Source: Acidobacteriota bacterium (GTDB lineage Bacteria > Acidobacteriota > Vicinamibacteria > Vicinamibacterales > CAVVIG01). Taken from it: 43,691 nucleotides of DNA. Every line of letters begins with the position of its first letter. Position 1 is the stretch's first letter. Location: contig JAHFUI010000001.1 of assembly GCA_023265175.1 (NCBI GenBank), forward strand, positions 18,599 through 62,289, written 5' to 3'. Positions 8,345 to 26,342 of this stretch are shown here, piece by piece. The translations under genes were made by a program, and so were the position numbers. The notes under the pieces are model-generated. The model searched no databases. It saw only the letters and a list, made by a program, of their open reading frames with translations, and was not told the DNA's origin.

Positions 8345-9778
8345 ATGTATGAGGAATACTACGGCTTCGTCGAGAAGCCGTTCAGCCTGACGCCCGATCC
8401 GAAGTATCTGTACAAGAGCGAATCGCACGCGGGCGCGTTCGATCTGCTGCAGTACGCCATCCGCCGTCGCGAGGGGTTCGCGGTCATCACCGGCGACATC
8501 GGCACGGGCAAGACCACGCTGTGCCGCGCGCTGCTGGAGCAGGTCGATCGCAAGACGTTTACCGCGCTCGTCCTGAACCCGTTTCTCTCGGAGGACGATC
8601 TCCTCAAGCTGATCCTCCAGGATTTCGGCGTCATCTCGCGCGAGGAGATGAAACAGGGGCGGTTTGCCCGCATCAGCAAGCAGGAGCTGATCGACGCGCT
8701 CTACGATTTCTTGCTCGGACTCCTGCCGCTGCAGTCGAGCGCAGTCGTGATTATCGATGAAGCGCAGAATCTGCCGCTGCAGGTGCTCGAGCAGATTCGA
8801 ATTCTCTCGAATCTCGAGACCGACAAGGAGAAGCTGCTGCAGATCGTGCTCGTCGGCCAGTCGAACCTCGAGACGCTGCTGCGATCGCCCGAGCTGCGCC
8901 AGCTCGATCAGCGCATTTCGATTCGGTACCATTTGAAACCGCTCAGCCACGAAGAGACGACGGCGTACATCGCGCATCGGCTGACGATCGCGGGCGGATC
9001 GAGGGTCGGCTTCAGCCGCAAGGCGGTCGCGATGGTCCACCGCGCCTCTGGCGGACTGCCGCGCCTGATCAACCTGATTTGCGACCGGGCGCTGCTCGGC
9101 GCCTACTCGGTCAGGACCAACCGCGTGTCGCCGGAAATGGTCGAGAACGCGATCGACGGTCTCGAACTGCAGACGTCGGCGCGTCCCGGCTGGGCGCGCG
9201 CGCATCGCCGCTCACTGATGGCCGGGATCGGCACGGCTATGGCGGCGCTGACGTTGGGCGTCGCCGCGCAGTTCGGACCGATGATTTCGTCTCACGTGAC
9301 GGGCACGCAGCCGAGCGCCGGCGCCGTGAGCGTCCTGACGCCCGCGCCGGAGCAGACGGCCACGGCCGCTGTCGTTCCACAAGGCGATCCAGTGTTGGAC
9401 AACGTCGCGCATGACCGGTCGGCGAGCCCGCAGACGTTGGCGCCGCTCGCCGCGAACGATCCGCATCGCTTGCCGTCCGGCTCCGGCTATACCGTCGTCG
9501 TCGCGTCGTATTCGGTGACTGCCGGAGCGAGCGCCGCGCAAGTGACGTCGCTGACCTCGCGGCTCGAAAAAGCCGGTTTCACGGTGTATTACGCCGACGT
9601 CGATTTGGCGGCACGGGGCCGCTGGCGCCGCGTCCTGGTGGGCGCGTTTGCCGGCCTCGACGAGGCGCGCAACGCCGAAGCGCAGCTCAGGCAAGCACCG
9701 GGCCTCGAGCTCGCTCGCGCCGTCACCTTTCAGCTCGCGTCGAGCGCGCCGAGCGCTCCGCGAGCCGCGAAGGGGTGA
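8345..9778 (+). CDS. mshM: ExeA/MshM-type AAA ATPase with C-terminal SPOR domain
   Basis: A 477-residue protein starting with the ExeA-family opening YYGFVEKPFSLTPDP. Walker A GDIGTGKTT lies at 50-58, Walker B VVIIDEAQ near 134-141 and the GGLPRLINLICD sensor-2 region near 237. A single membrane helix (about 290-312) leads to a Pro/Ala-rich periplasmic linker and a C-terminal SPOR-like peptidoglycan-binding domain (about 380-465). This design fits a motor that links the cytoplasm to septal or denuded peptidoglycan and helps place the secretin, as known for ExeA and GspA. It lies 9 bp after the secretin gene and one base before the TPR gene. Confidence 0.9.
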   Translation: MYEEYYGFVEKPFSLTPDPKYLYKSESHAGAFDLLQYAIRRREGFAVITGDIGTGKTTLCRALLEQVDRKTFTALVLNPFLSEDDLLKLILQDFGVISREEMKQGRFARISKQELIDALYDFLLGLLPLQSSAVVIIDEAQNLPLQVLEQIRILSNLETDKEKLLQIVLVGQSNLETLLRSPELRQLDQRISIRYHLKPLSHEETTAYIAHRLTIAGGSRVGFSRKAVAMVHRASGGLPRLINLICDRALLGAYSVRTNRVSPEMVENAIDGLELQTSARPGWARAHRRSLMAGIGTAMAALTLGVAAQFGPMISSHVTGTQPSAGAVSVLTPAPEQTATAAVVPQGDPVLDNVAHDRSASPQTLAPLAANDPHRLPSGSGYTVVVASYSVTAGASAAQVTSLTSRLEKAGFTVYYADVDLAARGRWRRVLVGAFAGLDEARNAEAQLRQAPGLELARAVTFQLASSAPSAPRAAKG

Positions 9779-9779
9779 A

Positions 9780-10985
9780 ATGAGCCGACTGATCGACGCG
9801 CTGCGGCGGACCGGCGGCACGCGGCTTCTGTCGAGCCGTCAGCAAGCGGTGCCGCCCAACGCGCACGCGGATACCGTGCTCGCGGCGCTTGGATATTCGC
9901 CCGAGAAGCGCCGGTGCGGCTGGTCGCGTCGCACTCTGTATATCTTCGCGGCCGCGGCGACGATGCTGCTTGGGGTTGGCGGATGGGTGATGGTGAACGT
10001 GTACGGGCTCTACTCCCGGGCGCCGCTAGGTCGAAGTATCGGACGCGTGCCGAGCACAGCTGCTCCTCAGGTGGCGACCCGCTCTCCGGAGCCAGTCCCG
10101 GTAGAAGCGGACGCGACACCAACGCCGCCTGGTATCGCGGCGGCATCCGAGCCGCCAATCGCCCAGTTCATCCCTGCTCGTAGCGCTCCGATCGAGGACG
10201 TCGCCCGGCAGTCGACAGTCGGCAGGCGGCAGGCGCCAGGCGGCAGGCGCCAGGCGGCAGGCGCCAGGCGGCAGTTGGCAGTCGCCAGTCGGCAGTCGGC
10301 AGGCGCCAGTCGTCAGGCGGAAGTCCCTGCTGCGCGTGCGCCTCAGACGCCCGCGCCGCTTGCCGCGTCATCGTCCCCGGGGGCGCCGGCCGGAGCGTCT
10401 GCGGTGTCAGACGAGGACCACTTCAGGCTCGCGGTCTATTACCAGCGCGCCGGCGATTTCGACACTGCGCTCACGCACTACCGCGCGCTGCTGCAGCGCA
10501 ACGAGCTGAACGCCGAAGCGCACAACAATCTTGGCCTGCTGTATCAGCAGAAAGGGCAGCTCGATCAGGCGATTCCGCAGTTTCAGCGGGCGATCCTCAT
10601 CGATCCGAAGTACGCGAAGGCGCACAACAACCTCGGTGTCGCGCTTTTGCGGTCGGGCAACGCCGACGCCGCGGCGACCGAGTTTCAGGCGATTCTGGCG
10701 GGGGATCCGAAAGACGTCGATGCGCTCGTGAATCTGGCGCTGGCGTTCAAGGCGGCGGGGAGTCCGGGCAAAGCGCAGGAGACGCTGCTGCGGGCCATTG
10801 CCGTGCGCTCGACGAGCGCCGCCGCGCACTACAACCTCGCGTTACTGTACGAGCAGGATCAGGAGATGGCGAGCGCGATCGACCACTACCGCGCGTTTCT
10901 GACCCACGCCGGCGTCGAATACGCCAACCTCACCGGCGATGTGCGCAAGCGTGTCGAGACGCTGAGCGCGCGGCTCGTTCCCTAA
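9780..10985 (+). CDS. mshN: MshN-like membrane-anchored TPR protein
   Basis: A 401-residue protein that begins MSRLIDALRR, the usual opening of this group. It has one membrane helix (about 52-74), a Pro/Ala-rich periplasmic linker (80-208) and at least four tetratricopeptide repeats (about 209-375, with AEAHNNLGLLYQQKG and AKAHNNLGVALLRSG). The linker contains residues about 143-179 encoded by a degenerate heptamer array (RRQAPGG-type repeats), which looks like a repeat invasion of a tolerant region. ATG 9780 follows the ATPase stop by one base. It presumably scaffolds pilus or secretion assembly; the name MshN rests on position and architecture. Confidence 0.83.
   Translation: MSRLIDALRRTGGTRLLSSRQQAVPPNAHADTVLAALGYSPEKRRCGWSRRTLYIFAAAATMLLGVGGWVMVNVYGLYSRAPLGRSIGRVPSTAAPQVATRSPEPVPVEADATPTPPGIAAASEPPIAQFIPARSAPIEDVARQSTVGRRQAPGGRRQAAGARRQLAVASRQSAGASRQAEVPAARAPQTPAPLAASSSPGAPAGASAVSDEDHFRLAVYYQRAGDFDTALTHYRALLQRNELNAEAHNNLGLLYQQKGQLDQAIPQFQRAILIDPKYAKAHNNLGVALLRSGNADAAATEFQAILAGDPKDVDALVNLALAFKAAGSPGKAQETLLRAIAVRSTSAAAHYNLALLYEQDQEMASAIDHYRAFLTHAGVEYANLTGDVRKRVETLSARLVP
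10207..10320. repeat. Heptamer tandem array 3, inside the TPR gene
   Basis: About 16 degenerate heptamers of the forms CAGTCGG, CAGGCGG, CAGGCGC and CAGTTGG on the plus strand, all within the linker-coding part of the mshN-like gene. It is more diverged than the other arrays and uses GGCGCCA/GGCGGCA alternation, so it is probably older. The reading orientation is again the one free of stop codons. Confidence 0.93.
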
Positions 10986-10992: not shown

Positions 10993-11325
10993 CTAAGTCG
11001 CACGATCAGCGCCGCCGCGCCCCGCGCGTAGCTCGACGATGTTCCGCAGCGGCCAGGCGGAGAGGCGCGGGCCGATCGGGAAGTTCTCCGTCCCGGAATG
11101 ACAATCCCAACAGCGCACGACGCGCGCGGTCAGCATCACCGTCTCCGACTCCAGCTCGAATTCCACCGCGACCTGATGATTGGGCGCCTGCGGGCGCGCC
11201 GCGTGTACGAGCGCGCCGGTCTCGCTCACCTCGACGAGATGCCCGTCGTGACGGCCCATGCGAACTCGATGCGGCGACACGCGGACGCGCACGGCCCGGC
11301 GCCGCTCGATCGTCGCGGCCGTCAA
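10993..11325 (-). CDS. PilZ-domain protein (probable c-di-GMP binding)
   Basis: A 110-residue protein made of little more than one PilZ domain. The N-terminal arginine motif is present (RRRAVRVR, residues 8-15). The second motif reads EVSETG (32-37) instead of the usual D/N-x-S-x-x-G, a conservative change, so binding of c-di-GMP is likely but not certain. It is convergent with the TPR gene, with only 7 bp between the stops. An in-frame extension upstream is not obvious. It fits a cluster where other proteins also suggest c-di-GMP control. Confidence 0.82.
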   Translation of the reverse strand: MTAATIERRRAVRVRVSPHRVRMGRHDGHLVEVSETGALVHAARPQAPNHQVAVEFELESETVMLTARVVRCWDCHSGTENFPIGPRLSAWPLRNIVELRAGRGGADRAT

Positions 11326-11680
11326 CGGCGCCTCGCTTCTCGTTCTTCCCTCGACAGATCACGACCATCATGACGATCACCTCTGGCGTGCCCTCGTCCC
11401 GCGGTCCCGTGACGGGACGCGGCTCAAATTTTCAGAAAACGATGCACCCCCGACTTAGCAAGAGCGTTGCCAACATATGAGGTCTTCCACCGGCCAGCGC
11501 CGAATCGCCGCTCGGTCAGAGACAGGAAACGAACTGCACGCAGTCGCGTGTAGTGCGCGAGGCGGGACGAAAGGTCCTGTGGATGTTCGAGCGTTGCGGC
11601 AACAGACGCAGCGCGGCGCGCGCTACCGGAGTTGTGGCTTCAGCGAAGAGGACGCTTCAAAATTCGGGGGTGATCAGGGA
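11326..11680. other. Gene-free stretch upstream of the PilZ gene
   Basis: About 355 bp without a convincing gene. Short open frames on the plus strand here have no recognisable domains and arginine-rich, shadow-like composition. A small inverted repeat, GTCCCG-TGA-CGGGAC near 11403-11417, could form a hairpin. I see no tRNA, clear promoter or mobile element. Confidence 0.6.
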
Positions 11681-12157
11681 TCAGGGCGCTACGAAAAGAA
11701 TCTTGTACAAGCTGGCGCCTTTGTCGGGGTTCGTGATCAGTAGATCATGCCACGACGCCGATTGCACGAACCCGCGCAGGACGCGCAGGTCGATCGTGCC
11801 GTGCCGCACGCCCTGGGCGGGCAACACAACGCGGACCTCGTAGCGGACCGTGTCGCCGCGCTGGACACCGAGAAACTTCGTGAACTCGACTTCCGCGATC
11901 AACTCGAACGGCAGCTGAAACGTGCCGTCGCTCGAGCGGATGGTGAAAAAGCGATTGCCGGATTCGTTCAGCAGCGTCTCGTCGACGCGGAGATCCGAAA
12001 CCGGGACGAACCAATCCGGCAGGCTGCGATCGGTGAACACCAGCGCGTTGAACTTACGGGCGCGGACCCCCAACTGCGCCGCCGGCCGCGCGGCGATGTC
12101 GCCCGAGAGCGACGTCAGGAGCAGCAAGCAAACGAGGGAGACAGCGTGGGGGCGCAT
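11681..12157 (-). CDS. Secreted protein of unknown function
   Basis: A 158-residue protein with a clear signal peptide (residues 1-23, hydrophobic core VSLVCLLLLTSLSG, likely cut after IAARPAA or shortly before). The mature part is beta-rich with alternating polar/hydrophobic strands (KFNALVF, FFTIRSSDGTFQLPFEL, RYEVRVVLPAQG). No cysteine pair or catalytic motif is seen and I do not recognise a family. It is divergent from the pilin array, sharing the 376-bp intergenic region that holds a hairpin repeat and a sigma-54 site. Confidence 0.65.
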   Translation of the reverse strand: MRPHAVSLVCLLLLTSLSGDIAARPAAQLGVRARKFNALVFTDRSLPDWFVPVSDLRVDETLLNESGNRFFTIRSSDGTFQLPFELIAEVEFTKFLGVQRGDTVRYEVRVVLPAQGVRHGTIDLRVLRGFVQSASWHDLLITNPDKGASLYKILFVAP

Positions 12158-12223
12158 GCGAGCGGGGCCATCTTACGCCGCGCGGCCGCGTGGTTCAAAT
12201 CAACGCCTCACAACCCATTTCAG

Positions 12224-12272
12224 AACCACAAAGGCCACGAAGAACACCAAGAAAACCTTTGTGATCTTTGTG
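12224..12272. repeat. ACCACAAAG-type 9-mer hairpin
   Basis: Tandem 9-bp units (ACCACAAAG, GCCACGAAG, AACACCAAG) are followed by CTTTGTGATCTTTGTG, which can pair back with them. It belongs to the same hairpin family as 4662-4726 and 30025-30104. It lies between the divergent secreted-protein gene and the first pilin gene, about 150 bp upstream of the sigma-54 promoter candidate. Confidence 0.88.
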
Positions 12273-12418
12273 CCGTGTTATTCAACATTATTTGCAGGCT
12301 GCCCAGTCTGGGCCCGCGAGATGAGGCTTCAATTCGTGTCGGTTTGTCCGCGGATCTGACCGAGCGGAATCAACCCAACCAGTTGTCCGCAAGCGACATA
12401 CAGCGCTTGCTCGTGTCA

Positions 12419-12434
12419 GGGCATGGCGATTGCT
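12419..12434 (+). promoter_or_regulatory. Candidate sigma-54 promoter for the pilin array
   Basis: GGGCATGGCGATTGCT has the invariant GG and GC separated by exactly 10 bp and matches TGGCAC-N5-TTGCW at all but two positions. The predicted start, near 12445, lies about 90 bp before the GTG of the first pilin gene. Several TGTC/GACA elements lie just upstream (about 12335-12417), reminiscent of sites reported for PilR-type activators. An NtrC-type activator is encoded at 24931-26346. Confidence 0.65.
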
Positions 12435-12533
12435 CTGTTAGACGACCGTTCAGGCGTCGCGGACGCCCGGGCTGTGGACGGGGCGAGGCCGGCTCGACAT
12501 CCACATCTCGCGAACCAGCACAAGGAGTCAGCG

Positions 12534-13322
12534 GTGCTCACAAGGGTTTCGAACGATCGCGGCATGACCATCATCGAAACGATGGTCATGCTTTCGGTCA
12601 TGTTCATCCTCGCCGGCGTTCTGTCGCCGATCGTGTCTGAATCGATCACAACGGCCAGGGAGGTCAAGGCGAAGAGCGACGCCATCATGCTCGCCACCGC
12701 ACTCATCAATCTCACAAAGGATCTTGGCGCCGATGCCCTGAGCTCGAGTGCCACGACGTCCGGATCGTATGAGGTCAACTCCGCGATCTCCCCGACGAGC
12801 TTCCTCGCGTCGCAAGGCAGAAGCGGTCGCGCCGCGCGTCTGCCGGAGGTGCTCATCAGCGAGGGTACGGACCCGTCCACCACCGATAGCGAAAATACGG
12901 GCAGCGCGCTCAAAGCCCCGATGGTTTCCATGGTTTCACTGAGCGCCATGGGGCAGAAAGCGGCCGATGCGTCGTCGTCGCGGACTCCGCGCTCCAAGTG
13001 GCTGCAGGCCGGACGCGATCTGCTCAACGACTATCTCGTGACCAACACCCATGGCTTTCGGATGCGAAGACCGGGCGAGAACGACGGGTGGAACGGTCCG
13101 TACCTCAGCGCCAAATTGCCCGGCGATCCCTGGGGCAACCGCTACATGATCAACTCCTCCTGGCTCGACGGAGGCGCGACCGCGTCCGACGCAGCCGGGA
13201 ATCTCCGCAGCGCGGTCTATGTCGTGTCGGCCGGCGCAAACGGCATCATCGAGACGCCGTTCAACCAGCCGATCACCGACGCGAAGGCGTACGGCGACGA
13301 CATCGTCGTGCGGATTCAGTGA
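12534..13322 (+). CDS. Prepilin-type GspG-like protein, array member 1
   Basis: A 262-residue prepilin. The leader is 10 residues ending RG, then the mature start MTIIE with the required glutamate at +5 and a hydrophobic assembly helix. The GspG-type C-terminal segment begins DPWGNRYMIN at residue 198 and ends in a GDDIVVRIQ tail. It has a long Ser/Thr-rich insert (about residues 65-145) that later members lack. GTG 12534 is chosen because AAGGAG sits six bases before it; upstream frame extension has no pilin character. It is probably the first gene of a sigma-54-driven transcript. The stop overlaps the next ATG by one base (TGATG). Confidence 0.85.
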   Translation: MLTRVSNDRGMTIIETMVMLSVMFILAGVLSPIVSESITTAREVKAKSDAIMLATALINLTKDLGADALSSSATTSGSYEVNSAISPTSFLASQGRSGRAARLPEVLISEGTDPSTTDSENTGSALKAPMVSMVSLSAMGQKAADASSSRTPRSKWLQAGRDLLNDYLVTNTHGFRMRRPGENDGWNGPYLSAKLPGDPWGNRYMINSSWLDGGATASDAAGNLRSAVYVVSAGANGIIETPFNQPITDAKAYGDDIVVRIQ

Positions 13323-13951
13323 TGTCAGGGCTCCTGCGCGATCAGCGTGGACTGACGCTCATCGAGGTCAGCTTGATGCTGCTCGCCAGCGCCACCTTCA
13401 TGGCGGCGCTCGCGCCGTCGATTCGCGCCGTCGTCTTCAAGGCCCAGACAACGGCCGCGACAACCTACATGAATCAAATCGTGACCGCTGTAAACGCATC
13501 GATCGGCACAGTCGGCGAGACCGGATGCCGTCGTTTCAGAAGCAGCGGTGGCTGCAACGGGCCGAACGTGAGCTTGATCGTGACCGACGGCGACATGCCG
13601 ACGAGGTGTGTCGCGGCAACCGGGTGTGGCGGCGGCGTGTCGTCCTGGAACCGTCTCGTCAATGGCACCACGATCGATTTCCTCGAACGACACATCGTCA
13701 CCAACAACCCGGGAGGGAACCCTGCGAATAATTATCCCATCGGCAACTGGAAAGGCGCCTACATGAACGCGCCGATCGATCCGGATCCGTGGGGCAATCG
13801 CTACATGCTCAATGTGGAATACATGAACAACTTCCCTAACAGTGTCTGGGTGCTGTCCGCCGGACCGGACGAGACGATCAGCACGATCTTCACGGCCGTG
13901 TGGCCGGTCGCGGTGGGTGGCGACGATCTGGCCGTCCGGGTGGAGCAATAA
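13322..13951 (+). CDS. Prepilin-type GspG-like protein, array member 2
   Basis: A 209-residue prepilin with a 10-residue leader (MSGLLRDQRG) and mature start LTLIE. Four cysteines at about 69, 78, 96 and 102 could form two disulfides in the globular head. The DPWGNRYMLN segment starts at residue 155 and a SAGPDETI/GGDDLAV ending follows, corresponding to the calcium-site end of GspG proteins. A DFLERHIVTNNPGG stretch is shared with member 3. The start overlaps the previous stop, indicating coupled translation. Among the array it is closest to members 1 and 3. Confidence 0.87.
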   Translation: MSGLLRDQRGLTLIEVSLMLLASATFMAALAPSIRAVVFKAQTTAATTYMNQIVTAVNASIGTVGETGCRRFRSSGGCNGPNVSLIVTDGDMPTRCVAATGCGGGVSSWNRLVNGTTIDFLERHIVTNNPGGNPANNYPIGNWKGAYMNAPIDPDPWGNRYMLNVEYMNNFPNSVWVLSAGPDETISTIFTAVWPVAVGGDDLAVRVEQ

Positions 13952-13952
13952 C

Positions 13953-14651
13953 GTGGTCCGCCGCTCGTCGGAAGCCGGCGTCACGCTCGTCGAGATTACG
14001 ATCGTCCTGCTCTGCATCGCGATTCTGACCGCCGCCGCCGCGCCGGTCGCCTCGCGGACGATCGATCGCGCCAAGCTCGCGCGGGCCGTGAGCGACGAAG
14101 CGGCCATCAAGACGGCTATCACGAACTTTCTGACAGACATGGTGGCCGTTGTCTTCACCAACAACGGCGCCGCGGCCGGCGGGACGACTAGCGTCCTCGT
14201 CAGCGACGGCGACATCCCGACCGAGCCGTGCCCCGGCGCTGTCCCGGCGGCCGACTGCACGGCGTGGAAGGGCGTGGTCGTCACGGTTGCGGCGCCGGCA
14301 GGCGGGGCTCCGTGCAGTACGACGGAGGTGATTGGATCCTGCGTCGATTTCCTCGAGCGACACCTCGTCACGAACACCCCGGCTGGCGGCGCGTACTCAA
14401 CCGTCGCAGCCTGGAAAGGTGCGTACCTTTCCGCGCCGGTCGAGCCAGACCCCTGGGGCAATCGTTACGCGGTGAACACGCAGTTCCTGAAGGCGACGAA
14501 CCCGGCGACGTTGACGTCCAACGACGTCTTCGTGCTCTCAGCCGGACCTGATGAACAGATCGACACGGTCTTCACGAAAAACGGCATCACCCCTGGGGAC
14601 GACGACATCATCAACGTGGTTCGGCGCGACCTCAACGCGACCGTACCGTAA
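13953..14651 (+). CDS. Prepilin-type GspG-like protein, array member 3
   Basis: A 232-residue prepilin. GTG 13953 follows the previous stop by one base and gives a 9-residue leader ending EAG, then VTLVE with Glu+5. Four cysteines lie outside the helix (about 93, 102, 121, 130) in positions recalling member 2, so a disulfide-stabilised head is likely. A DFLERHLVTNTPAGG stretch, DPWGNRYAVN and a VFVLSAGPDEQIDT ending with GDDDIINVV follow. The N-terminal helix is unusually alanine-rich (LTAAAAPVA). Confidence 0.87.
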   Translation: MVRRSSEAGVTLVEITIVLLCIAILTAAAAPVASRTIDRAKLARAVSDEAAIKTAITNFLTDMVAVVFTNNGAAAGGTTSVLVSDGDIPTEPCPGAVPAADCTAWKGVVVTVAAPAGGAPCSTTEVIGSCVDFLERHLVTNTPAGGAYSTVAAWKGAYLSAPVEPDPWGNRYAVNTQFLKATNPATLTSNDVFVLSAGPDEQIDTVFTKNGITPGDDDIINVVRRDLNATVP

Positions 14652-14659
14652 GACCGATC

Positions 14660-15502
14660 ATGAAGACCCATCCATCGACATCCTCCTCGCTGCGCCCCTC
14701 TCGCCTAACAGTCCGTGGTGGGCTGCTAGCTCGGTCGGCGCGCGGCCTGTCGCTGGTCGAGGCGACGATCATTCTGGCGACCGTGTCGATCCTGAGCGCG
14801 ATTTTGGCGCCGACGATCAGCGGCTACATCGACCAGGCGCGCATCGCGCGCGCCCGCGAAGACGTGCGCGTCATCGGCGACGCCATCAACACTTTCATCG
14901 ACGACAACGGGGAGAAGGTGTTTCTGCAGGACGGAGTGGGCGCGGCCGCATTGAACCCGCCGGCGAACCGGCGCGATAACGGCGGCACGAGCTACCGGGT
15001 CAATCTGCTGGTGAGCGACGGCGACGTTCCGACCGGCGCCGCCGGCGTCACCGACGTCGCGTTCTGGCTGCAAGCGGTGAGCGCGACCTTCGTCCAGACG
15101 CTGTCCGATCACCTGATCGAGAACCAGCCGAACGACACGACGGCGAACCGTTATCGGAACCCCAACGACGTGACGACGGCTTCAACGGGTGGGAACATCG
15201 ATTTTGCCCGCACGGAATCGAGCGGCTTCAACGCGCCGTACGCCTGGCGGGGCGCGTACCTCAAGAGCCCGGTGAACGCCGACCCGTGGGGCAACCGCTA
15301 CGCCGTGAACGTCGGCTTCCTCGATCCGTCGCCGACCATCGCCATCGCGAATATCTCGACGGCCGTGGCGAATTACCCGAGGATGGACGTGTTCGTGATC
15401 TCGGCGGGCGGGGACGAGGAAATCGACACCACGCCAGAGCAGGACGGCGCGGTGCCGGGCGACGACGACATCATTTACGTGGTGAGCAGCAATGCCAAGT
15501 AA
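14660..15502 (+). CDS. Prepilin-type GspG-like protein, array member 4
   Basis: A 280-residue prepilin, the longest of the ten. The leader is long (29 residues, Ser/Arg-rich, ending SARG) before LSLVE. The helix is followed by ARAREDVRVIGDAINTFI, a pattern shared with member 5. The head ends with DPWGNRYAVN and VFVISAGGDEEIDT, then GDDDIIYVV. The head contains a NRYRNPNDVTTAS stretch similar to member 5's NRYRIATDMT. It starts 8 bp after member 3 and overlaps member 5 by 11 bp. Confidence 0.87.
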   Translation: MKTHPSTSSSLRPSRLTVRGGLLARSARGLSLVEATIILATVSILSAILAPTISGYIDQARIARAREDVRVIGDAINTFIDDNGEKVFLQDGVGAAALNPPANRRDNGGTSYRVNLLVSDGDVPTGAAGVTDVAFWLQAVSATFVQTLSDHLIENQPNDTTANRYRNPNDVTTASTGGNIDFARTESSGFNAPYAWRGAYLKSPVNADPWGNRYAVNVGFLDPSPTIAIANISTAVANYPRMDVFVISAGGDEEIDTTPEQDGAVPGDDDIIYVVSSNAK

Positions 15503-16238
15503 GCGACTGACGACTGTCGACTGTCAGTCCGAACGAGGTCTGTCGCTCATCGAGGCGACGATCATCCTGGCGGTGATCTCGGTTCTCACGTCGGTCCTGG
15601 CGCCATCGATCAACGACTACATCCAGGAGGCGAAGCAGGCCCGTGCGAAGAAGGACGTCGAGACGATCGGCACTGCGCTCAAGGTCATGCTGAGAGACGT
15701 CGGCGAAACGTGGGTGATGCAGGACGGTAACGGCACGTTGTCGACCGATCCGCCGTCGCACGCGGCTGGCAATCGTGTCGATCTGCTCGTCAGTGCCAGC
15801 GGCAGTATCCCCACCATCGGTCTCGCGCGTTCGTCGGGATCGCCGGACTGGAGCGCCGCGGTCAACGACTTGGGCATTCAAACATTGGACTACCATCTCA
15901 TTCTCAACAAGCCGAGCAATGTCGCGGCGAACCGTTACCGGATCGCGACCGACATGACGATCGGCTTCGACCCGACCGACGGCTCGCAGTTCAACTCCGA
16001 ATTCGCGTGGCGCGGCGCGTATCTGGAGGGACCAACTGGCGCCGATCCCTGGGGCACGCGCTTCGCCGTGAACGCAGAGTATCTGGCGAAGGCGCCCGGC
16101 GGCGCGGCGGGCAACGTGAACGACGTGTTTGTGCTGTGCGCCGGCAGCGATCGGACCACGAATACGCGCTACGACACCGACGGTGTCTCGGCGCTCGGCG
16201 ACGACATCATCTACGTCATTTCGGGGTCGACGCGCTAA
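15492..16238 (+). CDS. Prepilin-type GspG-like protein, array member 5
   Basis: A 248-residue prepilin. The 16-residue leader (ending SERG) contains LTTVDCQS, encoded by a short heptamer array, so part of the leader derives from repeat DNA. The mature start is LSLIE and the helix continues into a Lys-rich KQARAKKDVETIG stretch. The GspG-type end has DPWGTRFAVN and VFVLCAGSDRTTNT followed by LGDDIIYVI. The nearest relative is member 4. After its stop comes a 287-bp gap holding the second sigma-54 candidate. Confidence 0.87.
   Translation: MPSKRLTTVDCQSERGLSLIEATIILAVISVLTSVLAPSINDYIQEAKQARAKKDVETIGTALKVMLRDVGETWVMQDGNGTLSTDPPSHAAGNRVDLLVSASGSIPTIGLARSSGSPDWSAAVNDLGIQTLDYHLILNKPSNVAANRYRIATDMTIGFDPTDGSQFNSEFAWRGAYLEGPTGADPWGTRFAVNAEYLAKAPGGAAGNVNDVFVLCAGSDRTTNTRYDTDGVSALGDDIIYVISGSTR
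15504..15529. repeat. Heptamer tandem array 4 (short), in a prepilin leader
   Basis: About four units of CTGACGA/CTGTCGA on the plus strand, just after the stop of member 4 and inside the leader-coding region of member 5. The orientation is opposite to the other gene-embedded arrays, and the array is short enough that no TGA falls in frame. Confidence 0.8.
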
Positions 16239-16250
16239 GGCGAACCCCAA

Positions 16251-16294
16251 TTTTTGTAGAAATCAGGCCTTCGACGATCATCGTTTTTTGTAGA
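16251..16294 (+). promoter_or_regulatory. Two TTTTTGTAGA elements upstream of a sigma-54 site
   Basis: TTTTTGTAGA at 16251-16260 and TTTTTTGTAGA at 16284-16294 lie about 65-100 bp upstream of the -24/-12 element at 16357. A third copy, TTTTTTGTAG at 18111-18120, lies about 85 bp upstream of the third sigma-54 candidate. Position and recurrence suit enhancer sites for an NtrC-type activator; the sequence itself matches no site I know. Confidence 0.4.
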
Positions 16295-16356
16295 TTTCGC
16301 GGAGCGCCACGGTACGAAATTCGTGTAAGTCGTTGATACAGGTTGCTTCTCGTCGT

Positions 16357-16372
16357 TGGTACTGCAGTTGCT
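16357..16372 (+). promoter_or_regulatory. Candidate sigma-54 promoter before array member 6
   Basis: TGGTACTGCAGTTGCT carries GG-N10-GC and an intact TTGCT -12 half; only one base of the TGGCAC half differs. The predicted start near 16383 would give a leader of about 140 bases before ATG 16526. It is the best -24/-12 match seen in this window. Confidence 0.72.
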
Positions 16373-16525
16373 GTTGGGAAGTCGCGTAAGGGCCCGCTCC
16401 CACAGGAGCAGCGAAAGCAGTCACCCGGCGCTTTCCAGCGCACTGGCGGTGTTGACGGAAACTTGGCGCGGTGGGGGGCCGCAACGGACATGCGCGGAAC
16501 GAATCCCGGCATGTTGGAGGACAGC

Positions 16526-17260
16526 ATGAGACGCAGACTTACCGGACAACGCGGGATGTCACTGGTGGAGGCGACCATCATCCTGATGGTGCTGTCCCTC
16601 CTTACCGCGATGTTCGCGCCCTCACTCGGGGACTACGTGAACGACGCGAAAGACGTGAAGGTGAAAGAAGATCTCGAGGAGATTGGCCTCGCGATCGAGC
16701 GGACTGTCCGCGATACGGGGCAGCCGTTCCTGGAGATCGTGGCTGCCACCGGGACCACCAAGGCCAACCGCGTGGATGTGTTGACCACGGATGGCAACGC
16801 CGCGACGCTCGCCGCCGGCACGACGGCGACGCTGATTCCGGCCAGCACCGCGACGACGGTCGGGCTGACGTGGAATGAGGCGACCAATACCTCGACCTGC
16901 ACGATCCAGTTCATCACCAACGCGACGGTCGCGTATCCGCAGGCCGCCCTGGTCACCAGCTTCGGCGTCGGCGGACCTCGGCTGGGCATCGGCTGGCGCG
17001 GCGCGTATCTGGACCAGTGCGGTCCGGATCCGTGGGGCACGAAGTATTACGCCAATACGATTTTCCTGGGCGTCGCCAGCGACTCGGCGGCCGGGTCGGG
17101 CGAGGGCGCGAAAAGCGGCGGCTGGTCGTTCGACACGATCGTGCTGTCGGCGGGTCGCAACACGGTCATCGACACGAAGATCGACGCGGCCGATGCGAAT
17201 CACGGAACGACGCTCGTCGGCGACGACGTCGCCTACGTCGTGCAGGGTGCGACGCGGTAA
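16526..17260 (+). CDS. Prepilin-type GspG-like protein, array member 6
   Basis: A 244-residue prepilin with a 10-residue leader (MRRRLTGQRG) and mature start MSLVE. The helix is followed by DYVNDAKDVKVKEDLEEIG, then a Thr/Ala-rich head. There are two cysteines, in STCTIQF and DQCGPDPWGTKYY. It ends VLSAGRNTVIDT and GDDVAYVVQGATR. ATG 16526 has TTGGAGG five bases before it; ATG 16511 is a less likely alternative. It is a near-duplicate of member 8 (same length), with a middle segment almost identical in DNA and a strongly diverged 5' third. Confidence 0.87.
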   Translation: MRRRLTGQRGMSLVEATIILMVLSLLTAMFAPSLGDYVNDAKDVKVKEDLEEIGLAIERTVRDTGQPFLEIVAATGTTKANRVDVLTTDGNAATLAAGTTATLIPASTATTVGLTWNEATNTSTCTIQFITNATVAYPQAALVTSFGVGGPRLGIGWRGAYLDQCGPDPWGTKYYANTIFLGVASDSAAGSGEGAKSGGWSFDTIVLSAGRNTVIDTKIDAADANHGTTLVGDDVAYVVQGATR

Positions 17261-17346
17261 CGACGCGCATCCAGAACGAACGCCTCGATGGCCTGTTCCT
17301 TGGCCTGCGAAGCACTAACACGACGTTTCACCGGATGGAGCCTTCG

Positions 17347-17985
17347 ATGCGCAGCTCCGCACGATTCTCCCGGCGCCAGCAGGGTTTCACGCTGATCGAG
17401 CTGACGGTCGTCCTCGCCGTCATCGTGACGCTGGCCCTGATTCTGACTCCGTCGATCACGAACTTCATCAACGACGCACGCGTCGCGCGCGCGCGCAACG
17501 ATACGCAGACGATCGCCGGCGCGGTCATCCAGTTCTACAAGGACAACGGATTTTTCCCGCAGTGGACGGCGGCGGTCAGCGGGGGCCCAGGCACGGCGGC
17601 CAACAAGGTCGATCTGCTGATCAGCCCCGGCAATGTGCCGACCGTCTCGTCGGCCAACACCTGGACGACAGGGACCACCGATACCTTCGCGCACCAGTTG
17701 CTGAATAACACGCCCGCCTACACCGTGAAGAGCGCCACGTCGACGTTCGGCTGGAACGGCCCGTACATGTCATCGGACATCGGCGCCGACGCCTGGAACA
17801 ACCGCTACATGGTGAATACCGGGCTCATCGACACCAGCCAGGGCACCCAGACGCAAGGCGGCGCGACGAAGAGCGCCGTGTGGGTGATCTCGGCGGGACC
17901 CAACGGCCAGCTCGAGACCAGCTACACGCAAGCCGTTACCAGCGCGGTGAGTGCCGCCGACGACATCGCCGTTCGTATTCAGTAA
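17347..17985 (+). CDS. Prepilin-type GspG-like protein, array member 7
   Basis: A 212-residue prepilin of the classic FTLIE type with a 13-residue leader ending QQG. The assembly helix and early head (ITNFINDARVARARNDTQTIAG, then FYKDNGFFPQWTAAVSGG) are nearly the same as in members 9 and 10. The segment usually reading DPWGNRY is DAWNNRYMVN. It ends VWVISAGPNGQLET and ADDIAVRIQ. ATG 17347 is favoured because GGAG lies six bases upstream; ATG 17335 is also in frame. It forms a pair with member 6 that is echoed by the pair 8-9. Confidence 0.88.
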   Translation: MRSSARFSRRQQGFTLIELTVVLAVIVTLALILTPSITNFINDARVARARNDTQTIAGAVIQFYKDNGFFPQWTAAVSGGPGTAANKVDLLISPGNVPTVSSANTWTTGTTDTFAHQLLNNTPAYTVKSATSTFGWNGPYMSSDIGADAWNNRYMVNTGLIDTSQGTQTQGGATKSAVWVISAGPNGQLETSYTQAVTSAVSAADDIAVRIQ

Positions 17986-18204
17986 CAGCGGTACCCTTTC
18001 CTCGTTCAATAACAGCGGCGCCCTTTCCTCGGTCGCCGGAGCCATTACTCGACTTCCCAGGACTACCGGGCTGCGCGCATGTCGCGTAGCCGCTTCTGCA
18101 GCGGCCACTATTTTTTGTAGCCTCATCGCCGGCTCTCCCTTCCACAGCCGTAGATCCAAACCTAAAAATTTAAGTAAAGCATTGATATATATACATATAT
18201 CTAG

Positions 18205-18220
18205 TGGCATCTGCCTTGCT
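18205..18220 (+). promoter_or_regulatory. Candidate sigma-54 promoter abutting array member 8
   Basis: TGGCATCTGCCTTGCT matches TGGCAC-N5-TTGCW at all but one informative base, with GG-N10-GC spacing. It is preceded by an unusually AT-rich block (about 18163-18203), as expected for a bendable or IHF-like region. The predicted start near 18231 is only about 3 bases before ATG 18234, so the message would be nearly leaderless. Confidence 0.62.
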
Positions 18221-18233
18221 GCAGCACGACAGC

Positions 18234-18968
18234 ATGAGACACAAACTTACGCAACAACGTGGTATGTCACTCGTAGAAGCAACCATCATTCTGATGGTGT
18301 TGTCACTCCTCACCGCCGTCGTCGCGCCGTCAATCGGGGACTACGTGAACGACGCCAAGGACGTCAAGGCAAAGGAAGACGTCCAGGCGATTGGCACGGC
18401 GATCCAGCGGACCGTCCGTGACACGGGGGCGCCGTTTCTGGAGAAAGTGGCGGCCACCGGGAATACCATGGCCAACCGCGCGGACGTCTTGACGACGGAC
18501 GGCAACGCCGCGACGCTTGCCGCCGGCACGACGGCGACGCTGATTCCGGCCAGCACCGCGACGACGGTCGGGCTGACGTGGAATGAGGCGACCAATACCT
18601 CGACCTGCACGATCCAGTTCATCACCAACGCGACGGTCGCGTATCCGCAGGCCGCCCTGGTCACCAGCTTCGGCGTCGGCGGACCTCGGCTGGGCATTGG
18701 CTGGCGCGGCGCGTATCTGGACCAGTGCGGCCCGGATCCCTGGGGCACGAAGTACTACGCCAATACGATTTTCCTGGGCGTCGCCAACGACTCGGTGGCC
18801 GGGTCGGGCGAGGGCGCGAAAAGCGGCGGCTGGTCGTTCGACACGATCGTGCTGTCGGCGGGTCGCAACACGGTCATCGATACAAAGATCGACGCGGCTG
18901 ATGCGAACCACGGAACGACCCTCGTCGGCGACGATTTCGCGTTCGTGGTGCAGGGTGCGACGCGGTAA
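18234..18968 (+). CDS. Prepilin-type GspG-like protein, array member 8
   Basis: A 244-residue prepilin (leader MRHKLTQQRG, mature start MSLVE), the sister of member 6. The two share the two cysteines, the DPWGTKYY segment and the GATR C-terminus. By hand alignment the genes differ at about 52 of the first 267 bases, 1 of the next 197 and 16 of the last 271, suggesting gene conversion of the middle. ATG 18234 has no ribosome binding site (GCACGACAGC where member 6 has GGAGGACAGC) and sits just after a sigma-54 element. A GTG at 18204 is in frame but upstream of the predicted transcript start. Confidence 0.86.
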   Translation: MRHKLTQQRGMSLVEATIILMVLSLLTAVVAPSIGDYVNDAKDVKAKEDVQAIGTAIQRTVRDTGAPFLEKVAATGNTMANRADVLTTDGNAATLAAGTTATLIPASTATTVGLTWNEATNTSTCTIQFITNATVAYPQAALVTSFGVGGPRLGIGWRGAYLDQCGPDPWGTKYYANTIFLGVANDSVAGSGEGAKSGGWSFDTIVLSAGRNTVIDTKIDAADANHGTTLVGDDFAFVVQGATR

Positions 18969-19013
18969 GTCTCTCTCAACAAGATAAACGAGGGTTAGCG
19001 GACGGAGACTGCC

Positions 19014-19649
19014 ATGAGCTCGGAACGAATCTCTCGGAGCGAGAACGGGTTCACCCTGATCGAATTGACGGTGGTGCTCGCGGTGATCGTGACGCTGGCG
19101 CTGATTCTGACGCCCTCGATCACGAACTTCATCAACGACTCGCGCGTCGCGCGCGCGAGGAACGATACGCAGACGATCGCCGGCGCGGTCGTGCAGTTCT
19201 ACAAAGACAACGGCTTCTTTCCGCAGTGGACGGCGGCGGTCAGCGGCGGGGCCGGCACGGTGGCGAACAAAGTCGATCTGCTGATCAGCTCCGGCAATGT
19301 GCCGACCGTCTCGTCGGCCAACACCTGGACCACCGGCACGACCGACACGCTGGCGCATCAGGTGATGAACAACACGCCGGTCTATACGGTGAAGACCGCG
19401 ACCTCGCAGTTCGGCTGGAACGGGCCGTACCTCTCGTCGGACATCGGTGCCGACGCCTGGAACAATCGGTACATGGTCAACGTCGGCCTGATCGATACCA
19501 ACCAGGGCATCCAAACACAGAGTGGCGGCACGAAAGACGCGGTCTGGGTGATTTCAGCCGGTCCCAACGGCCAGATCGAGACGACGTTTACTCAGTTGGC
19601 CACGTCCGCAGCATCGGGCGGCGATGACATCGGCGTGCGGATCCAATGA
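19014..19649 (+). CDS. Prepilin-type GspG-like protein, array member 9
   Basis: A 211-residue FTLIE-type prepilin with a 12-residue leader ending SENG. Roughly 85 percent of residues match member 7, including FYKDNGFFPQWTAAVSGG, ANTWTTGTTDTLAHQ and DAWNNRYMVN. It ends VWVISAGPNGQIET and GDDIGVRIQ. It lies 45 bp after member 8, so 8-9 repeat the 6-7 arrangement and probably arose by duplication of a two-gene unit. A GGAG about seven bases before the ATG supports the start. Confidence 0.88.
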   Translation: MSSERISRSENGFTLIELTVVLAVIVTLALILTPSITNFINDSRVARARNDTQTIAGAVVQFYKDNGFFPQWTAAVSGGAGTVANKVDLLISSGNVPTVSSANTWTTGTTDTLAHQVMNNTPVYTVKTATSQFGWNGPYLSSDIGADAWNNRYMVNVGLIDTNQGIQTQSGGTKDAVWVISAGPNGQIETTFTQLATSAASGGDDIGVRIQ

Positions 19650-19739
19650 CGCGGCGTGCATCGAGCGCACACCGGACGGACGCCAGGAACAGACGATTGC
19701 GCTTGATTATGGCTCCGGTCGGTACTACCATACGGCTCA

Positions 19740-20426
19740 TTGGCAAGGCTCGCTGTTAGTCGCCCTTCGCTCCGAACATTGAATCGTGGGAATCGTGGGA
19801 ATCGTGGGAATCATGGGAGTCGTGGATTCACGCTCATCGAGCTGACGGTCGTTCTGGCCGTCATCGTCACCCTCGCGCTGATTCTCACCCCCTCGATTAC
19901 CAACTTCATCACCGACTCGCGCGTGGCGCGCGCGCGCAACGACGTGCAGACGATTGCCGCCGCCGCCGTGCAGTTCTACAAAGACAATGGGTTCTTCCCG
20001 CAATGGACGGCTGCGGTCAGCGGCGGTCCGGGCACGGCCGCGAACAAAGTCGATCTGTTGATCAGTCCGGGCAATGTTCCGGCGGTCGGCACCGCCAACA
20101 CCTGGACGACCGGCACGACCGACACGCTGGCGCATCAGTTGCTGAACAACACGCCGGTGTACACCGTGAAAACGGCGACGTCGCAGTTCGGTTGGAACGG
20201 TCCGTATCTCACCTCCGACATCGGCGCGGATCCCTGGAACAACCGCTACATGGTCAACGTCGGGTTGATCGATACCACGCAGGGCGTGCAAACCTCGGGC
20301 GGCGCCACCAAGAGCGCCGTGTGGATCGTCAGCGCCGGGCCGAACGGGACGATTGACACCGCCTATACCCAAGCGGTGACCATCGCACTGATTACCGGCG
20401 ACGACCTCGGCACCCGCATTCAGTAG
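19740..20426 (+). CDS. Prepilin-type GspG-like protein, array member 10
   Basis: A 228-residue FTLIE-type prepilin very close to members 7 and 9; here the segment is DPWNNRYMVN. The leader is long (29 residues) because it contains NRG repeats encoded by a tandem GGGAATCGT 9-mer array. The start shown is TTG 19740; TTG 19779 is an in-frame alternative that would leave mostly the repeat as leader. No good ribosome site precedes either. It ends VWIVSAGPNGTIDT and GDDLGTRIQ, and is the last gene of the array before a sigma-70-like promoter. Confidence 0.83.
   Translation: MARLAVSRPSLRTLNRGNRGNRGNHGSRGFTLIELTVVLAVIVTLALILTPSITNFITDSRVARARNDVQTIAAAAVQFYKDNGFFPQWTAAVSGGPGTAANKVDLLISPGNVPAVGTANTWTTGTTDTLAHQLLNNTPVYTVKTATSQFGWNGPYLTSDIGADPWNNRYMVNVGLIDTTQGVQTSGGATKSAVWIVSAGPNGTIDTAYTQAVTIALITGDDLGTRIQ
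19783..19831. repeat. GGGAATCGT 9-mer array in a prepilin leader
   Basis: About five units of GGGAATCGT/GGGAATCAT/GGGAGTCGT. As the unit is a multiple of three it encodes a simple NRG tripeptide repeat in the leader of prepilin 10, upstream of the cleavage glycine, so it would be removed from the mature pilin. Confidence 0.93.
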
Positions 20427-20542
20427 CGTCACTCGACATCAATCATCGGTCGATACGGTCGCGATCGAGTTCTTCGAGCAGGCCTGGTGGTCCCGGACCC
20501 GCATGGCGTTCCCCATCAATAACTTACGAACTACATTTTGTG

Positions 20543-20655: not shown

Positions 20656-22218
20656 ATGAAGCGAGTCGGAATCGAGCTGTCGGCTTCGCATTGCCGAATC
20701 GTCGAAACGATCGCGCCCCGACGCGCGGAAGGCGTGGGCGGGCACGAGGACGTGCGCGTCCGTGCGTTCGCGTCCATTCAGTACAAGACCGCGGCATCGC
20801 TGACCGAGCAGCTTCGCTCCATCATCTCCTCGAAAAGAATATCGCGCCGCGCGTGGGTGACGGTCTGGGGTGTCCGCAACGCGCATCAATTCCTGCTGCT
20901 GCCGCCCGCCGCACCGAGAGACCTCGACGCGCTGGCGCGTCGTGAGGCGCGTGGCGATCTCGCCGTACTGCAGGTCCAAGGCGGAGAGACGGCGTGCGGC
21001 GTTGCGATCGGCGGTATGCGTCAGGCGCCTGCCGCCGGCATGCGACGCGAGGTCGCGCTAGTTGCGGCGTCCGCCGAAGACGTTCGCACAGCGATTGAGC
21101 CGCTCGTCGACGCGGGCTTCGCTATCGACGGCGTGGCCACGCCGGCGCTGGCGTTGACGTCGTTGGCCCGCCGACGCCGGGGTGCCATCCCCGGACGGGC
21201 GCAGGCGTATCTTGCGGTGAACGCGGACGCAACCGGTCTGGCCGTCGTGCGCGACGGCTTGCTGGTCTTCGCCCGCGAGATTCCGTGGGGCTATCAGAGC
21301 GAGCCGGACGGACCTGGTACGCCACCGGACCCGGACGAGCTGGCCGCCCGGCTGGCGTCCGAGCTGCGACGGTCGTTTCTCTTCTTCAAGCAAACCTTCA
21401 AGACCGGGGTCGATCGGGTCATCACGTGCGGAGATCTGCCGCATCTGCGCTCGATCACGGCGCCGCTGATGACGGCGCTCGAACTGGAAGTCGAGACGCT
21501 CGATTCGATGGAAGGCATCGACGTCACGGTCCTGCCCGCTCCGGTCGACGAATTCCGCGCTCAGATCGCGACGCTGCGCCTCGCGTGGGCTGTGACCGCG
21601 GACGGGGCGCCGCCGATCAATCTACTGCCCTCCGACATCATCGCGGGACGCGACCGCAGCACGTGGCAACGCGCCATCGGCGCAGGCGTCGCCGCCGGCG
21701 TGGCGGTCAGCGCGCTGCTGTTCTGGCAGACCGATCTCACGACGCGCACCCGCACGCTGGAGTTGCGGCGCGCACAGCAGGAGCTGTCGTTGGCGGAGCC
21801 GCGGGCTCAGGCGGCGACCGACGCGCGCGAACGGCAGGCGGTCGATGGCGTGCGGCTCGCCGCGCTCGCGGCCTTCGACGCGCAGGGCCCGCGCCTGGCA
21901 CGCGCGCTCGAGGCCGTCGGGCAGGACACGCCAGCCGAGGTCGTCCTCAGCACCCTGAAGGTGCGGGCCGCAGGAGGAGTGTGGCGCGTGACGATTACCG
22001 GCGCGGCGGTGACGACCGATCCGGCGCTGGCACAGGGAGCCGTGAACCGGTTTCTCCGCGCGCTGCAGGCCTCGCCCTACTTCGGCGCGCCGGTCCGGCC
22101 CGCCGCGCTGAAGATGACGGCCGGCGATCTCCGGAGCGACGACAGCCGTGCGGGGCCGCTCGTGCCGCCGGGGATGAGCGGCATTGAATTTTCCGTCGAC
22201 TACGACATTCGCAAATGA
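20656..22218 (+). CDS. PilM-PilN fusion (GspL/MshI-like platform protein)
   Basis: A 520-residue inner-membrane platform protein joining two normally separate parts. Residues 1-310 look like the actin-fold PilM ATPase-like domain (opening KRVGIELSA, with YLAVNADATGLAVVRDG and FFKQTF). Then INLLP (321-325), the motif by which free PilN docks on PilM, leads straight into a membrane helix (about 340-357), a coiled-coil stretch (370-400) and a periplasmic ferredoxin-like domain (to 520). It acts in the pilus/secretion assembly platform. ATG 20656 is the only sensible start, though the GAGGAG upstream is 19 bases away. It overlaps the PilO-like gene by 4 bp. Confidence 0.88.
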   Translation: MKRVGIELSASHCRIVETIAPRRAEGVGGHEDVRVRAFASIQYKTAASLTEQLRSIISSKRISRRAWVTVWGVRNAHQFLLLPPAAPRDLDALARREARGDLAVLQVQGGETACGVAIGGMRQAPAAGMRREVALVAASAEDVRTAIEPLVDAGFAIDGVATPALALTSLARRRRGAIPGRAQAYLAVNADATGLAVVRDGLLVFAREIPWGYQSEPDGPGTPPDPDELAARLASELRRSFLFFKQTFKTGVDRVITCGDLPHLRSITAPLMTALELEVETLDSMEGIDVTVLPAPVDEFRAQIATLRLAWAVTADGAPPINLLPSDIIAGRDRSTWQRAIGAGVAAGVAVSALLFWQTDLTTRTRTLELRRAQQELSLAEPRAQAATDARERQAVDGVRLAALAAFDAQGPRLARALEAVGQDTPAEVVLSTLKVRAAGGVWRVTITGAAVTTDPALAQGAVNRFLRALQASPYFGAPVRPAALKMTAGDLRSDDSRAGPLVPPGMSGIEFSVDYDIRK

Positions 22219-22859
22219 AGGACTGGCTGACCGCGCATCATCGGCGAATCGTTCCGATCGTGGTGCCGGTGCTGATCGTCGGCGTCTGCTACCTCACCGT
22301 CATCGAGCCGCGCGCTCGCGCCGCCCGACGAGCGCAGGCGGAGACGATCGCCGTACGTGCGCGGCTCAGTGCCATTCCGGTTGGTGTGACCGTCCCTCGC
22401 GGGGAGATCGCGAGCGTGAACACCGCCGGCGAGTTCGAGCACCGCGTTCCGGCCACCGATCCGGTGCCGGATTTACTCGAGCGGCTCGCCCGCGTGGCCC
22501 TCGAGGGCTCGCCGTCGGGTTCGGTGCGCAGGTTGAAGATTGAAACGGCCGATCGCGTGGAGCTGGCGGGGCCCGGTGCGGAGGGCGGACCGCGTGTCGC
22601 GAGCACGTCGACAGACCAGCCGGACCCGCGCTTTGCGTTGTTTGCCACGAGTCTCACCTACACGTTGATTTCGGTGAAGTTCGAAGCCACGTACCCGGCG
22701 CTCGGCGGGTTCTTGTGGAATCTCCGCAATTTGCCGACGGCAATCGAAATCCGCTCGCTCGACGTGACGCACGTGGCGGTGCCAGCGGAGGACAGCCGGT
22801 TCCTGCAGGTGGAGCTGGTGCTGTTTGCGTTTCAGCGAGGGGCGGCCACGCCCTCATGA
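22215..22859 (+). CDS. PilO/MshJ-like assembly platform protein
   Basis: A 214-residue bitopic inner-membrane protein with a short cytoplasmic N-terminus, a helix at about 13-30 (VPIVVPVLIVGVCYL), a coiled-coil-prone ARAARRAQAETIAV segment and a periplasmic domain. The C-terminal LISVKFEATYPALGGFLWNLRNLPTAIEIRSLDV matches PilO/GspM-type folds. It would pair with the PilN half of the upstream fusion to form the alignment complex. ATGA overlaps join it to both neighbours, so the three genes are coupled. Confidence 0.82.
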   Translation: MKDWLTAHHRRIVPIVVPVLIVGVCYLTVIEPRARAARRAQAETIAVRARLSAIPVGVTVPRGEIASVNTAGEFEHRVPATDPVPDLLERLARVALEGSPSGSVRRLKIETADRVELAGPGAEGGPRVASTSTDQPDPRFALFATSLTYTLISVKFEATYPALGGFLWNLRNLPTAIEIRSLDVTHVAVPAEDSRFLQVELVLFAFQRGAATPS

Positions 22860-23380
22860 ACATGAAGCTGACGAACCGGCACCTCGCCGCCGCGGTGACG
22901 CTGCTGCTCGCGAGCATTCTGTACAACGCGTGGATTTTTTGGGGGCCGTCGTCGAAGAGCACCAGCCGGACGCAGCCCGTGGCGCCGCCCGCGAGCCAGG
23001 CTGCGGTCACGGCCGGCACGACGGGCGCGCCGCCCATGGTCAATCCGATGACGATGCCGGCTCCGTCTCGTCTTGATCTCGCGGTCGCGCCCACGTGGGA
23101 CCGCGATCCGTTCAGGCTGACGGCCGACAGCTCGACTCCGCCGGCGGTGGCGCCCGCGATCGCGGCCGTGGCGCCGGTAGTCGAGCCGGTGATCGGCGCG
23201 ATTCTGTTCTCGCCGGAGCGGCGTCTCGCGATTGTGAACGGAAAAATCGTGGCCGTGGGTGATCAGATCGCCTCTGGCGCGATCGTGGACATCACGAGGG
23301 ATGCCGTCCTCGTGCGCGGCGCGATGGGCGAGCGGCGCTTTCTGTTGGCCGGCCCGCGCCGCCGGGAGCTGCCGAAGTGA
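22856..23380 (+). CDS. PilP/MshK/GspC-like pilus assembly protein
   Basis: A 174-residue protein with one N-terminal membrane helix (about 9-30, LAAAVTLLLASILYNAWIFW) and a Pro/Ala-rich linker. A small beta domain follows (about 115-170) with IGAILFSPERRLAIVNGKIVAVGDQI, typical of the HR domain of GspC, MshK and PilP that binds the secretin N0 domain. There is no lipobox, so it is GspC/MshK-like rather than a PilP lipoprotein. It overlaps both neighbours by 4 bp. The next gene, a sensor kinase, is coupled to it, which ties regulation to the structural operon. Confidence 0.8.
   Translation: MNMKLTNRHLAAAVTLLLASILYNAWIFWGPSSKSTSRTQPVAPPASQAAVTAGTTGAPPMVNPMTMPAPSRLDLAVAPTWDRDPFRLTADSSTPPAVAPAIAAVAPVVEPVIGAILFSPERRLAIVNGKIVAVGDQIASGAIVDITRDAVLVRGAMGERRFLLAGPRRRELPK

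Positions 23381-24930: not shown

Positions 24931-26342
<1,412 letters not shown>

Follow-up and report, generated by a model that had tools for sequence, protein, structure and literature searches.

An ordered array of ten GspG-like pilin genes at an MSHA-like locus of an uncultivated acidobacterium

Type IV filaments are usually described as consisting of one main pilin and a few specialised minor ones; the locus reported here encodes many ordered pilins. Among the described systems closest to it are the MSHA pilus, the MSH class of type IV filaments (Denise et al. 2019, PMC6668835), and the type II secretion system (T2SS) with its GspG-H-I-J-K pilins. Mixed type IV filaments are already known: Streptococcus sanguinis makes one filament of two similar pilins, PilE1 and PilE2, in a 4:3 ratio (PMC6916266), and Haloferax volcanii has six adhesion pilins, PilA1-PilA6, each able to serve as the major pilin, with pilin subsets reported for different growth states (PMC4371748). 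We analysed a stretch of 43,691 nucleotides (the window) of contig C20 from an uncultivated acidobacterium, a metagenome-assembled genome (MAG) of 4.92 Mb in 308 contigs, in which ten GspG-like prepilin genes of types A to D stand in tandem. Our preferred reading, to which we give a probability of about 0.5, is that an MSHA-like machine would build a mixed GspG-fold filament here, with A as backbone, B as variable second subunit and the genes D1 to C2 as an ordered accessory set. Our search of the open-access literature, which did not cover subscription papers, found no description of such pilin arrays.

The ten prepilin open reading frames (ORFs) lie head to tail on the + strand at positions 12534-20426, and all are open, complete and in frame. 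All ten share Gly at -1 and Glu at +5 without exception, a hydrophobic helix follows the leader in each, and the elements of the GspG-like end (G-W-x-G-x-Y, D-x-W, S-A-G and DD) stand at positions that are invariant or nearly so. This confirmed an earlier sequence-only reading of the window, which had described ten adjacent genes with a Gly-ending leader, Glu at +5, a helix and a GspG-type end. The genes are listed below, with tree support for counterparts in the related genomes G102 and G122, the latter (the genome behind locus L044) from another family of the same order.

12534-13322, + strand: pilin D1, orthologs in G122 and G102 (96/98)
13322-13951, + strand: pilin D2, overlapping the D1 stop; orthologs in G122 and G102 (98/86)
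13953-14651, + strand: pilin D3, orthologs in G122 (99/96)
14660-15502, + strand: pilin C1, ortholog in G122 (100/99)
15492-16238, + strand: pilin C2, overlapping C1; same position and tree region in G122 (88/91)
16526-17260, + strand: pilin B1, in gene conversion with B2
17347-17985, + strand: pilin A1, from profile matches and codon comparison with A2 and A3
18234-18968, + strand: pilin B2, in gene conversion with B1
19014-19649, + strand: pilin A2, from profile matches and codon comparison with A1 and A3
19779-20426, + strand: pilin A3, the A copy adjoining pilM, with a GspG fold in the predicted model

The leader of A3 contains a 9-base repeat in five in-frame copies (19781-19825; NRGNRG...), and its start is likely TTG.

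Profile searches matched the GspG model TIGR01710 of NCBIfam to all ten pilins (E 1.3e-4 to 6.7e-13), always under its curated cut-off of 88.85 bits, while Pfam T2SSG exceeded its own cut-off in six. In the same searches GspH, GspI, GspJ or GspK was the best model for none of the ten, and no MshA model matched any of them. By these profiles the array pilins are GspG-like rather than GspG. The predicted model of A3 (predicted local distance difference test, pLDDT, 83) showed a long N-terminal helix and a small sheet. A Foldseek search with it returned no match at E<=0.001, though the top-listed structures were GspG, and the ranking rests on VIA-align Z-scores: the best six structures were all GspG, PulG or EpsG (Z 7.5-8.8, 98-124 residues aligned), with other pilins from 5.8. 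A3 carries about 75-100 residues additional to GspG. The conserved DD pair resembles the GspG calcium site and, from what is known of GspG, is presumably calcium-binding. That the ten are GspG-like paralogs without a GspK-like member, as the sequence-only reading had proposed, was thus borne out by profile search of each copy (TIGR01710 and T2SSG) and the fold of A3; the case in which most members would be ordinary GspH, I, J or K was not seen.

As a description of the array the order D-D-D-C-C-B-A-B-A-A holds. Identity is 79-85% among A1, A2 and A3, 91% between B1 and B2, and about 24-47% between different types. The four sets first proposed in this order did not stand as such. D1 groups with A in the tree (97/95), and the approximately unbiased test rejected a clade of D1, D2 and D3 (p-AU 0.0024), although the long branches of some D2 rows call for caution. 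C1 and C2 are no recent pair but two old genes that have distinct counterparts in G122. A1 and A2 are sisters, as are B1 and B2, and this fits duplication of a B-A pair. The ratio of nonsynonymous to synonymous divergence (dN/dS) was about 0.13-0.17 between pairs of A1, A2 and A3; for B1/B2 it was about 0.16 in the 5' stretch outside the conversion tract described below. The A and B copies are under purifying selection. Between B1 and B2, dS was 0.66 in codons 1-95, 0.04 in codons 96-215 and 0.50 at the end. This low middle dS between divergent flanks, together with a 179-base identical run, indicated a gene-conversion tract.

In G122, 11 contiguous pilins (D1-D2-D3-D3'-C1-C2-B-B-B-A-A) and two further pilins nearer the secretin were found, with orthology supported by the tree. 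D1-D2-D3-C1-C2-B-A is colinear between the window and G122. A recent tandem expansion of one gene is ruled out by these colinear orthologs, and a tree with all window copies as one clade was strongly rejected. The array is in the main an old ordered set, with recent amplification confined to A and B. The repeated duplication put forward by the sequence-only reading, including that of a B-A pair, therefore applies to A and B, whereas five to seven types are same-order orthologs in another family. G102 has D1-D2 at the beginning of a pilin run at a contig end. In family f18 (G164, G192, G256), known only to belong to the same phylum, the array is part-colinear (G164, G192), and the genomes that are less fragmented have about nine pilins in each locus; these include D1/A-like, D2/3-like, C-like and A-like pilins, with weak tree support for finer orthology. 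Next to the f18 pilins stand a kinase and a sigma-54-type regulator whose identity to the window counterpart is about 52-54%. The look for the same array in related genomes that had been suggested thus found it colinear in G122 and in part in f18.

With a strict threshold applied, 19 of the 162 genomes from the order carry the pilin family, as do 19 of 396 in a sample of the phylum; copy counts from the latter scan are lower bounds, since it scored only a few candidates in each genome. In family f5, G078 has six pilins, and G030 retains just A, in a locus that has decayed. L045 has one pilin. The f5 loci place A directly ahead of pilM as their final pilin, and for this reason the position of A3 beside pilM is likely the ancestral A position. 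By these comparisons the array is old and was probably often lost. A tblastn search with A3 gave no match in 72,556 plasmids.

Several observations on the relatives stand by themselves. A D3-like pilin of G122 (L044:2434-3030) stops before the DD motif. G102 encodes, between the TPR gene and the pilins, an ORF of 1782 amino acids with a signal-like start (L131:6150-11498), possibly a large surface protein. In G030 (L048/L049) the secretin and PilM/N are partial and one A pilin remains, and an ORF among the pilins of G052 (L050:15482-17272) has a PEP-CTERM-like end. Solitary pilins of the same family occur elsewhere (L060:8337-9047, L063:8323-8937, L064:10296-11009, L161, L162, L163); the first three have response-regulator or kinase genes as neighbours, some of which resemble the sigma-54 activator of the window.

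The array is flanked on both sides by genes for a filament machine, and a further prepilin gene, P11, follows gspF:

6713-8335, + strand: MshL/PilQ-like secretin (Pfam Secretin 3e-41; best NCBIfam model MshL TIGR02519, 213 bits against a cut-off of 250)
8345-9778, + strand: ExeA/MshM-like AAA ATPase with SPOR domain (Pfam AAA_22 and SPOR; TIGR03015 278 bits, below cut-off)
9780-10985, + strand: TPR protein in MshN-like position, the same position in relatives
20656-22218, + strand: PilM/PilN-like fusion in MshI position (weak Pfam PilN; conserved position)
22215-22859, + strand: PilO-like protein, by position and conservation in relatives, no family match
22856-23380, + strand: PilP/MshK-like protein, by position and conservation in relatives, no family match
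23377-24927, + strand: histidine kinase, HAMP-PAS-HisKA-HATPase by domain matches
24931-26346, + strand: NtrC-type response regulator with GAFTGA (identity to f5 relatives about 71%)
26277-27986, + strand: GspE/PilB-type ATPase with MshE-type cyclic di-GMP (c-di-GMP) motif (NF053729, 54.6 bits against a cut-off of 38)
27986-29206, + strand: GspF/PilC-like platform protein (Pfam T2SSF 5e-53)
29242-30021 (start codon uncertain), + strand: P11, GspG-like prepilin with C-terminal extension
31420-33438, + strand: second PilB-type ATPase with c-di-GMP motif and zinc ribbon (NF053729, 62.7 bits against a cut-off of 38)

Judged from these genes the locus is an MSHA-like type IV filament machine. As in MSHA, an MshL-like secretin, an ExeA/MshM-like ATPase, a TPR protein and a PilM/N-O-P-like set share one locus with the pilins, a platform protein and an extension ATPase with a c-di-GMP motif. 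The T2SSF match of the platform protein is common to other type IV filament classes and is therefore not MSHA-specific. Pfam MshEN was matched and the putative c-di-GMP-binding motif exceeded its cut-off in both ATPases; c-di-GMP may control extension. Membership in MSHA itself is unproven, because the secretin and MshM-like models scored below cut-off and the MshA model had no match. The locus also differs from MSHA in its pilins, which have the GspG fold (the MshA structure 9lab aligned to the A3 model with a Z of 2.4, against 8.8 for GspG), in the number of tandem GspG-like pilins, ten here as against a single major pilin with a few distinct minor ones in MSHA clusters, and in an adjacent NtrC-type two-component pair. 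With the T2SS it shares the GspG fold, the C-terminal motif and ordered pilin genes of distinct types, but all members are GspG-like, below the GspG cut-off, and none scored as H, I, J or K. Profile searches of the locus found no GspC, GspL or GspM family match and no H, I, J or K; by the GspG equivalog and H/I/J/K tests it is not a T2SS. P11 combines a GspG-like core, under the 88.85-bit cut-off of TIGR01710, with a C-terminal extension of about 90 amino acids; its GspH match is weak and N-terminal only, and it is kept after gspF in G042, G052 and G077. The eleventh prepilin of the sequence-only reading is hence real, but distinct from the ten.

Dispersed heptamer tandem repeats (GCGACTG and related) were also seen at 598-828, 3526-3628, 10206-10320, 39909-39983, 40402-40468 and 42238-42474, some inside genes, and a fragment of an IS110-type transposase lies at 39260-39715. 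No inverted repeats or inversion elements were found in 11000-20500.

Possible regulatory sites precede the B genes:

16250-16293, + strand: two copies of TTTTTTGTAG, one with a mismatch, possible activator sites (motif scan)
16357-16372, + strand: exact sigma-54-like promoter upstream of B1 (pattern scan)
18111-18120, + strand: TTTTTTGTAG upstream of B2 (motif scan)
18205-18220, + strand: exact sigma-54-like promoter upstream of B2 (pattern scan)

The window thus contains two exact sigma-54-like sites against 0.10 expected, and a one-mismatch site at 12419 upstream of D1. The three TTTTTTGTAG motifs (one with a mismatch; 0.14 expected) precede the exact sites at distances of 73-107 bases. In relatives, scanned with a pattern that was loosened after the window had been seen, five sigma-54-like sites precede pilin genes where 0.56 were expected (P 3e-4); a Fisher test against the upstream regions of other genes gave p=0.045. 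The site before B2 ends 13 bases before the ATG, in ribosome-site position (18205-18234). All features of a PilS/PilR-type system appear to be present, namely the kinase, the NtrC-type regulator with GAFTGA and the -24/-12 promoter-like sites, and the adjacent kinase and putative sigma-54 activator likely control at least the B-A units.

Taken together, we propose that the MSHA-like machine would build a filament in which several GspG-fold pilins are mixed. Its likely backbone would be type A, which has the canonical FTLIE start and lies last before pilM, and B would be a second pilin, present in different copy numbers in different lineages. The products of D1-D2-D3-C1-C2, genes that are tightly packed, would make up an ordered accessory set in which each pilin plays a distinct part, and would possibly do the job of the H/I/J/K minor pilins. 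Similar pilins were kept separate and ordered between families, which implies that each has its own job, and since distant relatives preserve the order of these distinct pilins, the filament probably contains many different subunits. Co-assembly, the roles of single pilins, how the locus is in fact regulated, and the function in the cell, for which adhesion or biofilm is most likely, are our inferences.

Several points weigh against this proposal. The pilin family is absent from 24 of 26 genomes of the same family, and the other two (G016 and G024) have a divergent locus; of the two signs that the sequence-only reading would have counted against itself, absence from the closest relatives was mostly seen and disrupted frames were not. 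A similar locus in the f5 genomes G042, G052 and G077 has no pilins besides A and one to three copies of B, so that D and C are not essential machine parts. In G122 the array has no adjacent pilM-gspF and abuts an apparent polysaccharide gene cluster (L124 9600-20000). The B1 model was poor (pLDDT 60) and too weak for a structure search. No rpoN was found in the MAG, while 33 of the 40 genomes searched (MAG and relatives) have it; this absence is likely an assembly gap. Owing to its loosened pattern, the count of sigma-54-like sites in relatives is supportive only. Finally, the same genome has FimT/PilV/PilW/PilX-like genes elsewhere (contigs C86, C154 and C246), a PilA-type pilin is likewise encoded away from contig C20, and C154 encodes a prepilin peptidase (names assigned by eye from sequence). 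Conventional minor pilins might thus prime the filament in trans, and the earlier statement that no minor pseudopilins are in sight is correct for the array locus but not for the genome.

Among other explanations, the least unlikely is a switchable pilus, in which the pilins are alternatives made in sets under different conditions from separate promoters. There are three apparent transcription units, the tightly packed D1-C2, B1-A1 and B2-A2. The idea arises from the sigma-54-like site that stands upstream of either B-A unit, with TTTTTTGTAG motifs also before B1 and B2 and a kinase and sigma-54 activator adjacent. Similar sites at both B-A units suggest joint rather than opposite control, however, and the ordered, mostly single-copy D1-C2 types of two families fit fixed roles better than interchangeable ones; a mixed filament is the better reading of the two. 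The six H. volcanii pilins differ from the array in being archaeal and not co-regulated with biosynthesis genes, and no ordered tandem set was described for them (PMC4371748). S. sanguinis differs in having two pilins only and a monoderm type IVa machine. Somewhat more doubtful is a secretion pseudopilus, with several GspG-like pilins as the piston of a T2SS-like machine for protein export. The GspG fold and motif would suit it, as would GspE and GspF models being top-scoring for the first ATPase and the platform protein, but the GspG matches under the equivalog cut-off and the missing T2SS components speak against it, and the secretin closest to MshL and the MshE-type c-di-GMP motifs point to a pilus.

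It is improbable that the copies serve dosage only, A and B being redundant and the D and C copies drifting leftovers. A1-A3 and B1/B2 are indeed similar, and some relatives manage on B and A alone; yet A and B are strongly constrained, and the D and C types are conserved in order and sequence between families without broken frames. In Neisseria pilE/pilS, one copy is expressed and silent truncated copies are donors. The array resembles this system in its many pilin copies and gene conversion, as the B1/B2 tract shows, and the copies might likewise donate by recombination to one expressed pilin. We consider such a variation store very improbable: every copy in the window is complete, with its own start and full leader, 5'-truncated donors are lacking, and the sole tract found joins two copies of one type and homogenises them. 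An assembly artefact of the metagenome bin is scarcely credible despite the fragmentation into 308 contigs, as it is contradicted by the colinear array in an independent assembly and the clear divergence between copies.

A bolder form of the mixed-filament proposal, which we regard as tentative and rather unlikely, is a distinct Acidobacteriota filament class in which five to seven ordered GspG-fold types would make up the whole filament from tip to backbone. If true, this class would replace the H/I/J/K set, and gene order would mirror assembly order. The locus offers a natural system for asking how mixed filaments assemble and whether minor pilins can arise from a major pilin, and it bears on the function of surface filaments in a poorly studied phylum.

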